From assembly GCA_030613375.1 (NCBI GenBank), contig JAUWMC010000007.1:1-37038 (forward strand): a stretch of DNA of 37,038 bases, in the 5' to 3' direction. The translations under genes and the position numbers were made by a program. Below are positions 17,186 through 21,123 of this stretch, piece after piece (the stretch's first letter is position 1; the number at the start of each line of letters is the position of its first letter). Under the pieces are notes generated by a model that saw only the letters and a list, made by a program, of their open reading frames with translations, was not told the DNA's origin and did not search any database. Origin of the DNA: Microcaldota archaeon (GTDB lineage: Archaea; Micrarchaeota; Micrarchaeia; Anstonellales; Bilamarchaeaceae).

Positions 17186-20100
17186 CTAAATCGGAATAGG
17201 TACGATAAGTGCGACATTCTTGAGGAACATGAGCCAACCTTTGTTGTACCACTTGGTCCTCTTCTCAATTACCTTAAGTAGGTCCCTGAATGCTTCTTTT
17301 TCCCCTGGACCCATCTTGCTGTCAGTAACCTTCTTGTGCTCTTTTCCATCCACAACTGTTATTTCCTCCTGCTTCCCGATTTGCTTGTTTGCCTGCTCAT
17401 ACCACGGGGGAAGAGAACTCCTTTTCTTTTTGATTGCCTTGATGAAGTCTGAAGTTTTTACATTTCTTTCCTTGCCGCTTTTGAATGCTTCCCTCCAAGG
17501 AATAGCAGCGGCTTCTTCAACGATTGCCTTGAGGTCTGCTGATGCATACCCGGAAGTTGCAAGCGCAAGGCGCTTATATGGGATTCTTTTAGACATTGGC
17601 CTCTTTTTTGCGTGAATCTTAATGATTGCCTCCCTTGAGCCAAAGTCAGGCTCCGGAACGAAGAGTGTTTTTCCGAAACGGCCGGATCTCCTCAATGCAG
17701 GGTCAATATCCCAGGGAGCGTTTGTTGCTGCGATTATGAGAACGTTCTGGTTGTTTGCCTCTACACCATCCATCTCATACAGCATCTGGTTTACTGCCAT
17801 CTTCATGTATTGTGCCCCTTCCTGCGCATCCCTCCTTCCTCCAATGGCATCTATTTCATCGAAAAAGAGGATACACGGTGCGTTTTTCCTTGCAGTCTCA
17901 AACACTTTGTGAATATTCTTTTCTGTATTACCAACGTACATGTCCAATAAGTCTGAAAGTTTAGCATTAATGAATGCAGAATCACATTCCCCTGCTGCTG
18001 CTTTTACTATGTAGGTGTTATGAACAATCAAACCGCCGAAACCAGCAACAAATGTGTGATTATCGGCTATGGTAAGGTCATAAACATACTCATCAACTTC
18101 TGTTACGTTGATCTCTACTATTTTATCCCACAATACTTCGGATTCTGCAAGTGTGCGCAATTGCTTTAGTTCATTAGAAACAGACTCCCCCAGAATTCTC
18201 TTTAGGAAATTCCTGCTCATTGTTTTTTGGAGCTCATAACGATAGCCATTTTTTGAGCCATAAAACTCAGTTTTGTTGAGTCCAGAAGCTAGTCGTGTCT
18301 CCTTCAAAAGAGAGTGGATATTGGGTATAATATCGGTATTGGTATGTCCTGAAATGCCTTTATCAGTCCAAAACTTAAGTTTAGAGATTTTTCTCTTGCT
18401 CATAAACCCAATCTTTTCTTCGAACTGTCGAAGGTTTTCGTTAGTAGAAATATATATTCTCCAGTAAGTGTGATCATTATCCTTAATGCGCTTAGGCTTT
18501 ATCCTAGCAACAATTCCAAAACGCAATAACAGATATGAAAGTTCATTGGCAAATTGTTTACTGGCTGTAGAAAATTCTATTTCTGGTATGTCTCCACGCA
18601 CGCACGCTTCACATTCAAATACTGCCGACAAGAAACTACTTGCAACTTTAAGTGGGGCACCCAGTACGGTTTTGGGAACTCTGGTATTCCTAGAACCTTG
18701 CAGCTTAAACCCATGGACTTCTTCTAAGAACCGCATAAGGGTAACTGAACCGATTTCAACTCGATATACTCCTTCAGAAGTATCCGGTTTAATTCTTGGA
18801 CTTAGGCCAAAAGTATCTTCAGTTGTTTGAGCCACTTGAGCAATAAGATCCTGGTTTGAATTCGAAAAAAACATTGTTCCATAAATAGAAGAACCTTCTG
18901 AAAGCATTAAGCCAAAATAGCGAGAAGTATTTTCATCCAAATTGTAGATGGGATTGATGCTTCTTGTATGGAGATGATTAGGAGATGCGCAATACTGGAG
19001 CATTTCTTGTCCGTTATTCTCAAATTTCCTAAAATCTTTAAGTAACACCTTGGGTTCCAAAACTGGAGTGGTCTTGAGTTCCCTAGGAACTGCTACATAC
19101 GCTCCAACTGAAAGTTCAGATGCTTTGGTTTTTTTTGCTCCGTTGGAAATGGAGATGAATGGATGTTCTGGCGTTACAGAAATTTTTCGTCCAGAGTGGG
19201 TGGTTACTTCATAGATTTTTCCTTTGTATCGCTGTCTGTAAATAAAGTCCACATCTTTTTTCTCCATTTTAAGGGTCTTTTTATTTAATGAAAGGACTTC
19301 AATTCCAGGTTGCTCAATTATAGTTTCATTTTCATTCAGAATCTTTTTGTTCTGGGATGTATGAGACTCATAAATGTCTTTAATGTCCTTAATTTTTCCA
19401 TCTGCAAGCAGCACGGGAGTATTTCCCTTTACACATTTCCCGCAACCAGGAGGACCATACATGATGATTCCTCCCCCTCCAAGCTTTCCATATTTCCTTG
19501 CAAGCTCGGGCTTTGCCATCGGGTAAATAACTGCTTCGCGGATTTCCTCTTTCATCTTTTCCATTCCCGCGACATCGGTGAAGTTCATATCTGGTTTCCT
19601 GAGAACCTTAATTTCTGAGGTTCCTCCTTCTTTTCCGCCTCCGCCTCCGGAGCCTGCGGTCTGCTTCTTGGTTTTTGCGGATTCAAGATGGCTCTTTGCT
19701 TCTGCAAGCTCGGGATTCAGCTCCAACGCTTTCTCATAATCAGAAACTGCACCGTCCACGTCCCCTGCATATTCAAATGCAAGGCCCCTGAGATGGTATG
19801 CTTCAGAAAAGTCTGGCTTGAGTTGTACTACCTTTGTGAAATCCTCCACTGCCTTTTCATAATCTTCCAGGGAGGCATAAGAAAGTGCGCGGTTGTAGTA
19901 TGCTTTTAGGTAATTCGGATTTAGCATGATTGCCTTATCATAGTCCTTGATTGCACTCGTGTAATCCTGTTTTCGGTAAAATGCGTCTCCCTTGTTGTTG
20001 AAGATGATTGGGTTCTTCGGATCCAGCTCTGCAGCTTCCGTATAGTCCGCAATGGACTTATCATAGTTCTTGAGCTGGTAGTAGCTTAATGCACGGTTGA

Positions 20101-20245
20101 AATAAGCTTCAGAAAATAGCGGGTTGAGCAAAATTGCCATGTTGTAGTTTTCAATTGCTTTCTCGTAATCTCCTTTCTCATAATAATCATTGGCGATCTT
20201 GTAATAACTCCCTGCATCTACTAATTGGGGTTTTTTCTCTGCCAT
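17186..20245 (-). CDS. N-terminal TPR repeats fused to Vps4/VCP-like AAA+ ATPase, interrupted by an intein (1019 aa precursor)
   Basis: About five TPR units (YNMAILLNPLFSEAYFNRALSYYQLKNYDKSI...); AAA: FTDVAGMEKMKEEIREAVIYPM, GPPGCGK/T, ILFFDEIDAIGGRR, IIAATNAPWDIDPALRRSGRF. Confidence 0.93.
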   Translation of the reverse strand: MAEKKPQLVDAGSYYKIANDYYEKGDYEKAIENYNMAILLNPLFSEAYFNRALSYYQLKNYDKSIADYTEAAELDPKNPIIFNNKGDAFYRKQDYTSAIKDYDKAIMLNPNYLKAYYNRALSYASLEDYEKAVEDFTKVVQLKPDFSEAYHLRGLAFEYAGDVDGAVSDYEKALELNPELAEAKSHLESAKTKKQTAGSGGGGGKEGGTSEIKVLRKPDMNFTDVAGMEKMKEEIREAVIYPMAKPELARKYGKLGGGGIIMYGPPGCGKCVKGNTPVLLADGKIKDIKDIYESHTSQNKKILNENETIIEQPGIEVLSLNKKTLKMEKKDVDFIYRQRYKGKIYEVTTHSGRKISVTPEHPFISISNGAKKTKASELSVGAYVAVPRELKTTPVLEPKVLLKDFRKFENNGQEMLQYCASPNHLHTRSINPIYNLDENTSRYFGLMLSEGSSIYGTMFFSNSNQDLIAQVAQTTEDTFGLSPRIKPDTSEGVYRVEIGSVTLMRFLEEVHGFKLQGSRNTRVPKTVLGAPLKVASSFLSAVFECEACVRGDIPEIEFSTASKQFANELSYLLLRFGIVARIKPKRIKDNDHTYWRIYISTNENLRQFEEKIGFMSKRKISKLKFWTDKGISGHTNTDIIPNIHSLLKETRLASGLNKTEFYGSKNGYRYELQKTMSRNFLKRILGESVSNELKQLRTLAESEVLWDKIVEINVTEVDEYVYDLTIADNHTFVAGFGGLIVHNTYIVKAAAGECDSAFINAKLSDLLDMYVGNTEKNIHKVFETARKNAPCILFFDEIDAIGGRRDAQEGAQYMKMAVNQMLYEMDGVEANNQNVLIIAATNAPWDIDPALRRSGRFGKTLFVPEPDFGSREAIIKIHAKKRPMSKRIPYKRLALATSGYASADLKAIVEEAAAIPWREAFKSGKERNVKTSDFIKAIKKKRSSLPPWYEQANKQIGKQEEITVVDGKEHKKVTDSKMGPGEKEAFRDLLKVIEKRTKWYNKGWLMFLKNVALIVPIPI
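18017..19435 (-). mobile_element. In-frame intein (473 aa) with LAGLIDADG-like endonuclease region, inserted in the AAA Walker A motif
   Basis: Host GPPGCGK | CVKGNTPVLLADGKIKDI (block A)... VTPEHPF (block B TxxH) ... FGLMLSEGSSIYG and FLSAVFECEACV (LAGLIDADG-like blocks C/E) ... VYDLTIADNHTFVAGFGGLIVHN (F/G) | TYIVKAAAGE. Cys at codon 271 (19435-19433), terminal Asn at codon 743 (18019-18017). Confidence 0.93.
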
Positions 20246-20351
20246 CTCACCACTGCCCGACTCGTGCTTAATCTCCTAATGTTGAGTAAAATAATTAATA
20301 AAGGTTACGAACCCAAATTCCAGAAACGAATCCTCTCCATATAAGAATAAA

Positions 20352-20371
20352 CCCACCACATGGGTGGTGGG
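20352..20371. repeat. Hairpin: 8-bp perfect stem CCCACCAC/GTGGTGGG, 4-nt loop, extendable by GAATAAA/TTTATTC across a 4-nt bulge (20345-20382)
   Basis: Direct inspection. Confidence 0.9.
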
Positions 20372-20394
20372 AGACTTTATTCAAGCTAAAGTCT
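20372..20394. repeat. Second hairpin: 8-bp perfect stem AGACTTTA/TAAAGTCT, 7-nt loop
   Basis: Direct inspection; shares nucleotides with the extended form of the first hairpin. Confidence 0.9.
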
Positions 20395-20616
20395 TGTGAA
20401 CTGCCCGCAACCGAAAGGAGCAGACTTCCTGCTTCATATGAGATGCTTGCCCTTGCGGGTAGAGGCCTCTTCTCAGACAGGCTTTACTTCCCTCAGTCCC
20501 TGAGGTAGGTCCAATGGACAGATATACTTTCATAATGCCGCTTATAAAGAAATGGAAGGAGGTGTTTTCCAGTGCTTCCAGTAGGTATTTTAAAGTATTT
20601 TCCCTGAAATCATTCC

Positions 20617-21123
20617 ATGAGCTCAAAGAAAGGCCAGGCAGCCATGGAATACCTCATGACATATGGCTGGGCAATTGTAGCACTTGTCATAGTAATTGCG
20701 GCCCTTATGGCCACGGGAGCGTTTAATCCTTCTTACCTGATTGCTGAGGAATGTACGTTACAGCCGGATTTGAGCTGCACAAGCCATGTTCTCTATCTGG
20801 ATACTGGGGGAACACCAACCCTTGAATTCCGCATCAACAACGGGCTTGGATATGATATAATGCTCACCAGCGTGAAGGTAACCTCAAGTGACAATGTCCC
20901 TTATGATACCTCATACGACGTAGTGATTCCACAGGGGACTACCTCTGACATAATCATGCAGCTGGATGAGATGCTTACGCACAAAGATGAAGTTGAAAGA
21001 ATGAAAGTAAGCCTAAAGTACATAAGCTGTGCCCCGGAAGTTAATCCAGACTGCCTTTCAAGCGGCCCTGAGCACGTTGTAAGCGGAAGAATAGTTGCAC
21101 ACACAGCAGAAGAGGATGTCTAG
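20617..21123 (+). CDS. Archaeal pilin-like protein with class III signal peptide (168 aa)
   Basis: MSSKKGQAAMEYLMTYGWAIVALVIVIAALMATGAF: diagnostic QAAMEYLMTYGWAI motif. Confidence 0.87.
   Translation: MSSKKGQAAMEYLMTYGWAIVALVIVIAALMATGAFNPSYLIAEECTLQPDLSCTSHVLYLDTGGTPTLEFRINNGLGYDIMLTSVKVTSSDNVPYDTSYDVVIPQGTTSDIIMQLDEMLTHKDEVERMKVSLKYISCAPEVNPDCLSSGPEHVVSGRIVAHTAEEDV

Follow-up and report, generated by a model that had tools for sequence, protein, structure and literature searches.

The guide RNA of TnpB normally lies inside the 3′ end of the tnpB gene itself. TnpB cuts TAM-adjacent DNA with an RNA that consists of the right end of the transposon and about 16 nt of flanking sequence, and in this way is believed to bring the transposon back to sites that it has left (PMC8612924); the 5′ end of the omega RNA is trimmed by TnpB out of its own mRNA (PMC10278001). 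IS605 derivatives without tnpB are already known in archaea, namely the PATEs (PMC3119063). The literature searched, key subscription papers lying outside it, contained no promoter-fused solo TnpB omega RNAs, and none in Micrarchaeota.

The window analyzed here is a stretch of 37,038 nt that makes up the entire contig JAUWMC010000007.1 of a Microcaldota archaeon (assembly GCA_030613375.1), the genome being a 1.16-Mb archaeal MAG of 90 contigs that is 94% complete. It carries a 194-bp insert that, judged from its sequence, can be assigned securely to the IS200/IS605 superfamily (IS1341-type) as a derivative without tnpB, that is, an omega-RNA locus.

Borders of the element and the adjoining insert

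The insert is located in a divergent intergenic region (20246-20616) of this Micrarchaeota MAG, as the first-pass annotation had stated, between a TPR-repeat protein gene on the minus strand (17186-20245), which is orthologous across Micrarchaeota and whose named relatives are from Candidatus Micrarchaeota, and a pilin-like gene with a class III signal peptide on the plus strand (20617-21123). The empty site anticipated in relatives was found in five congeners, where it spans about 50 bp of the orthologous intergenic region and lacks the insert. Alignment with these sites delimits a tnpB-less element of 194 bp (20396-20589, minus strand) inserted 3′ of TTTAA (20590-20594), the left flank and putative TAM or target motif; TTTAA is also the TAM used in experiments by the archaeal SisTnpB1 of Sulfolobus (PMC10640517). 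The right end terminates in TTCAC (20396-20400), the boundary between scaffold and guide and a terminus also seen in tnpB-linked scaffolds. The bases that follow it (AAGACTTTAGCTTGAATAA) are the host flank of the congeners' empty sites, on which the alignment placed them unprompted in the five congeners. Because these bases match the empty sites, the host sequence after TTCAC sets the borders at 20396-20589, the target as TTTAA and the predicted guide as AAGACTTTAGCTTGAATA. The junctions (TTTAA / element / AAGACTTTAG) show no target duplication relative to the empty sites and are ambiguous by a few bases. The region 20345-20530 described previously is real, but the homologous element is 20396-20589, and the guide proposed to follow GTGGTGGG (TTATATGGAGAGGATT) has to be given up, because that stretch belongs to a second insert and the guide starts directly after TTCAC.

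Read on the minus strand, the order is TTTAA, 6 bp, the TACTGGAAGCACTGGAAAAC box, TTTATAA, 33 bp, the scaffold, TTCAC and the guide. No tnpB ORF is present at the site, and the left-end subterminal hairpin of full elements is absent, the host flank meeting the promoter box within 6 bp. A MITE with terminal inverted repeats was rejected, as the region contains neither inverted repeats of at least 12 bp nor a target duplication; palindromes near both ends, which are a trait of PATEs, are not found either, the right-end hairpin being present and the left-end one absent. None of the relatives has an orthologue of the solo element at the same site, and there is thus no evidence of its vertical retention.

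The predicted guide (AAGACTTTAGCTTGAATAAA, 20376-20395, minus strand) is host flank homologous to the congeners' empty site, although its last base may belong to the second insert. At up to two mismatches, no target was found in the genome other than the own locus, and the search at three mismatches gave one match versus three control matches. The second insert (20288-20376) is 89 bp long and unrelated to the element; the congeners lack it, and the genome has no further copy of it. It carries a palindrome (CCCACCACCCATGTGGTGGG, 20352-20371), flanked by GAATAAA/TTTATTC, as well as a minus-strand T-rich tail; it appeared terminator-like in a terminator scan, and the palindrome may act as a terminator. 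The guide can also form a hairpin with this adjoining insert. The arrangement GAAGCAGGAAG...AGTTCACA followed by two hairpins is indeed present on the minus strand, and both hairpins exist, but they are not part of the right end to which they had been attributed: the one at 20372-20394 is partly host flank, and the one at 20352-20371 lies in the separate insert. The ORF tail that had been likened to a TnpB C-terminus (GTEGSKAC...SHMKQEV) is also present, and matches the C-termini of genuine TnpB proteins of relatives, for example ATSGTEGSKAC (L015) and ATAGTAGSQAC (L013).

Scaffold, promoter and related loci

The TnpB omega-RNA scaffold is 113 nt long (20396-20508, minus strand) and was matched at 81.6 bits (E 5.3e-19) by the covariance model R1, which was trained on 12 tnpB-linked scaffolds only, with the window left out. 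In the R1 alignment, 90% of the cells are paired and 11 of the 20 pairs show two-sided changes; its covariation score was reached by none of 500 shuffles. Among relatives, a full tnpB of the congener G004 gives the best match, with its 3′ end (blastn, 76%, E 5.7e-18), and a match in the same genome is the 3′ end of the tnpB at C21 (76%, E 3e-8). By these sequence comparisons, homology of the region to tnpB 3′ ends is far beyond chance. Homology to tnpB right ends of the same and related genomes bears out the solo IS200/IS605-type right end or omega RNA, without tnpB or tnpA at the site, that the first-pass annotation had proposed; the lack of homologous TnpB right ends, which it had named as an argument against itself, is contradicted by both the blastn and the covariance-model matches. 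In Rfam, the region had no match that reached the gathering threshold; relaxing the limit to E 10 added nothing above chance level, apart from one tRNA elsewhere.

In the window, none of the 13 pairs of helices 1-3 has been lost despite seven changed paired positions relative to the G004 tnpB scaffold, whereas 8.4 pairs would be expected to be kept under random changes (P 0.0006); helix 2 pairs through a shifted register (TGAGA/TCTCA). The kept pairing points to constraint along both lineages, those of the window and of G004, which may have acted before or after the loss of tnpB. Folded on its own, the sequence gives a minimum-energy structure that is no more stable than those of shuffles (z 0.09), and the plus-strand fold (z -3.2) is the complement of the scaffold.

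No tnpB lies upstream of the scaffold, and a promoter is found there instead (20542-20583, minus strand), a region that the first-pass annotation did not contain. This putative promoter consists of a TGGAAA box, TACTGGAAGCACTGGAAAAC, and a TATA box, TTTATAA (20542-20548), laid out as in the resident tnpB promoters, and matches the tnpB 5′ regions at C30 and C65 by 86-88%. In tnpB genes of the group, the start codon follows this box and TATA at a distance of about 30 nt; in the window, the scaffold occupies the place of the tnpB gene behind the promoter, the TATA box lying 40 nt upstream of it. The intervening spacer (20509-20541, minus strand) contains a hairpin in the fold (GTCC-ATT-GGAC, 20509-20519), and the transcription start is predicted at about 20515-20521 from the archaeal TATA-to-start distance. 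The match over 20542-20582 was also considered as a transposon left end and rejected: the box precedes host genes as well (a radical-SAM-like gene at C5, and C83) and many loci of G098, and is therefore a type of promoter that does not mark the end of a transposon.

Several observations concern promoters more generally. A motif about 20 nt upstream of the TATA (TGGAAACACTGGAAAC in the source genome, G000, and ACTGGAAAGTTACCC in G098) is found not only with tnpB genes and solo omega RNAs but also with ordinary genes of Micrarchaeota (L082, L003, L018, L019, L021 and L251-L264), and may be an undescribed general promoter element. At L018 and L019, which are from two congeners, a tiny conserved stretch, ATGGAATGGNCNTGGGAAAANGAACTGGA, stands behind the promoter match, as a very short gene or RNA. 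The same promoter sequence occurs three times in G098:C1 (342815, 368804 and 394793), exactly 25,989 bp apart, which points to a tandemly repeated unit of 26 kb, or else to an artefact of assembly. In the congeners, a single bidirectional TATA (CTTTAAAA) appears to serve both the pilin-like gene and the TPR gene, an arrangement that is split by the insertion in the window (20290-20595).

The genome has four tnpB genes, of which those at C65, C30 and C34 are intact and that at C21 has a single stop, and no Y1_Tnp (TnpA) was found in it. Beside the four tnpB-linked scaffolds there are four tnpB-less ones, the further three lying at C40, C38 and C30. The solo copy at C40 (ATTAA / element / TAAACC) has an own empty site in relatives and a host-derived guide. 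A tnpB-less copy at C30 (G000:C30:35642-36053, L127) keeps the left-end hairpin; it lies 3′ of ATTTAA, with a complete tnpB element immediately before it. The right ends of the resident tnpB elements are GTCAC or GCCAC in all four cases, not TTCAC; of their scaffolds, only the one at C21 is closely similar to that of the solo element (76%), and the closest scaffold overall follows the tnpB of another species (G004); the cognate nuclease may therefore be missing from the source genome.

Among 99 relatives, R1 matched 118 scaffolds, 77 of them behind a tnpB match (one tnpB query) and 41 not, including nine that are cut by the contig start. Upstream sequences were compared for 30 solo scaffolds, 24 of which are distinct. 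A TATA-like sequence starts 28-42 nt upstream in 11 of these 24, the average in other 15-nt windows being 0.9; not one of the 25 tnpB-linked scaffolds has it there (Fisher P 9e-5). This P value should be read as a guide only, since the TATA criterion was broadened following an initial inspection and the copies of any one genome are non-independent. This spacing would place the transcription start of solo scaffolds near the 5′ end of the omega RNA. In G098, a genome of two contigs, three loci have the promoter and the 5′ part of the scaffold in common (82-100% over 138-171 bp) and differ in flanks and guides, which indicates that promoter-plus-scaffold units have multiplied in this genome, in which no TnpA match was found. 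Other solo scaffolds have upstream features of their own: a hairpin, GCAACAAGGCTGAAAGTGCTGGTTGC, directly upstream of what is left of the final tnpB codons in three genomes (L128, L130 and L134), and a structured 5′ extension, CTGCAT..TGTATTGCGYAAAGCCG..AGTGCAGRGGCGGA, in three distant genomes (L136, L142 and L144). Five weak solo matches (L139, L146, L152, L155 and L157) were rejected as tnpB copies that are truncated, as contig ends or as likely false positives.

Explanations of the locus

The reading to which we lean, if only somewhat, is that the locus is the surviving, tnpB-deleted derivative of a TnpB transposon, in which the promoter leads straight into an intact omega-RNA scaffold, and that it is an expressed guide-only mini-element, probably working with TnpB in trans. 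The tnpB-type promoter would start transcription about 10 nt before the scaffold, so that an omega RNA of nearly mature size would be made without processing from a tnpB mRNA; as transcription of the solo locus would start near the mature 5′ end, the 5′ trimming step by TnpB would not be needed. The transcript would be ended by the palindrome at 20352-20371, and the guide trimmed to 16-20 nt. TnpB supplied in trans would then load the omega RNA and cleave DNA in which the site is empty (TTTAA + AAGACTTTAGC...), and repair of the cut from an occupied copy would keep the element in place. Self-cutting would be avoided, because the target at the own locus is preceded by the right end and not by a TAM.

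The main rival, which we regard as a serious contender though short of an even chance, is an inert relic: a full tnpB element was inserted, most of its left end and tnpB were deleted, and promoter and right end were left by chance, silent or without effect. The loss of the left-end hairpin, the second insert adjoining the element, the lack of an orthologue in congeners and the different right-end type of the resident TnpB elements all agree with it, and archaeal IS605 derivatives that have lost tnpB by core deletion are known as PATEs (PMC3119063). What chance retention does not readily account for is that the scaffold helices are intact, that the promoter spacing recurs among independent solo copies, and that the promoter-plus-scaffold repeats of G098 indicate that such units persist and multiply. 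The first-pass annotation's term relic fits the protein part, which is gone, but not the intact helices and promoter or the recurring architecture; the expressed guide-only element is favoured.

Promoter or leader donation is improbable. According to this explanation, the insertion matters mainly as leader and promoter of the TPR gene, the ancestral bidirectional TATA having been displaced by about 330 bp; the promoter of the element does face the TPR gene, the TATA common to the congeners is now distant from the TPR start, and a TATA-like sequence lies just upstream of the TPR gene at about 20291-20299 on the minus strand, but it would be left unexplained why the scaffold is kept and why unrelated loci have the same architecture. 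A 5′ UTR riboswitch or other cis-regulatory RNA, suggested by a structured RNA upstream of the TPR gene and in sense with it, is refuted by the empty sites, since the leaders of the orthologues that were compared (five congeners) lack the insert, contrary to the riboswitch-like conservation that had been set against the transposon reading, and both the Rfam result and the homology to tnpB 3′ ends speak against it.

If the favoured reading of an expressed guide-only element is extended to the related loci, the window may hold one member of a class of guide-only mobile elements in Micrarchaeota, made up of a promoter start at the scaffold 5′ end, a right end and a host guide, with no protein. 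Such elements would persist and multiply by borrowing the TnpB (and end-mobilising factors) of other elements and would restore themselves at empty sites; this generalization is a tentative one, and we consider it rather doubtful. Independently of this generalization, the locus, with at least three more guide-only copies in the same genome, indicates that guide RNAs can persist beyond the loss of their nuclease, and perhaps exploit it as parasites, and a nuclease-less guide RNA with its own promoter shows that guide and nuclease can separate, as in CRISPR-Cas12. Short structured inserts in archaeal intergenic regions that are blank in annotation would be explained by solo omega-RNA elements, and a solo omega RNA offers a simple test of whether TnpB guided in trans keeps non-coding mobile elements in a genome.

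Comparison with known systems

Solo IscB-type omega RNAs away from the nuclease were reportedly described by Altae-Tran and colleagues in 2021, and such guide loci are said to possibly act in trans; the nuclease family differs from that of the present locus. The sotRNAs, or omega RNAs, of Halobacterium salinarum (RF02656 and RF02657; PMC12558985) are likewise archaeal TnpB-associated guide RNAs, but they overlap tnpB, unlike the present locus, and neither family is among the Rfam matches of the region up to E 10. The PATEs of Haloquadratum (PMC3119063) share with this element the lack of a transposase gene, an IS605-type right end, the absence of a target duplication and a core deletion. They are described by their ends, whereas the present element has no left-terminal palindrome and keeps a promoter and a full omega-RNA scaffold.

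The RNA itself most resembles the omega RNA or reRNA of ISDra2 (PMC8612924, PMC10097598) and of AmaTnpB (PMC10278001), in which the scaffold also ends at the right end, a terminal stem-loop stands just before the guide, and the guide comes from the host flank; the scaffold lengths are 116 nt in ISDra2, 106 nt in AmaTnpB and 113 nt here. In contrast to both, the present scaffold does not lie at a tnpB 3′ end and has its own promoter directly upstream, so that processing from an mRNA would be unnecessary.
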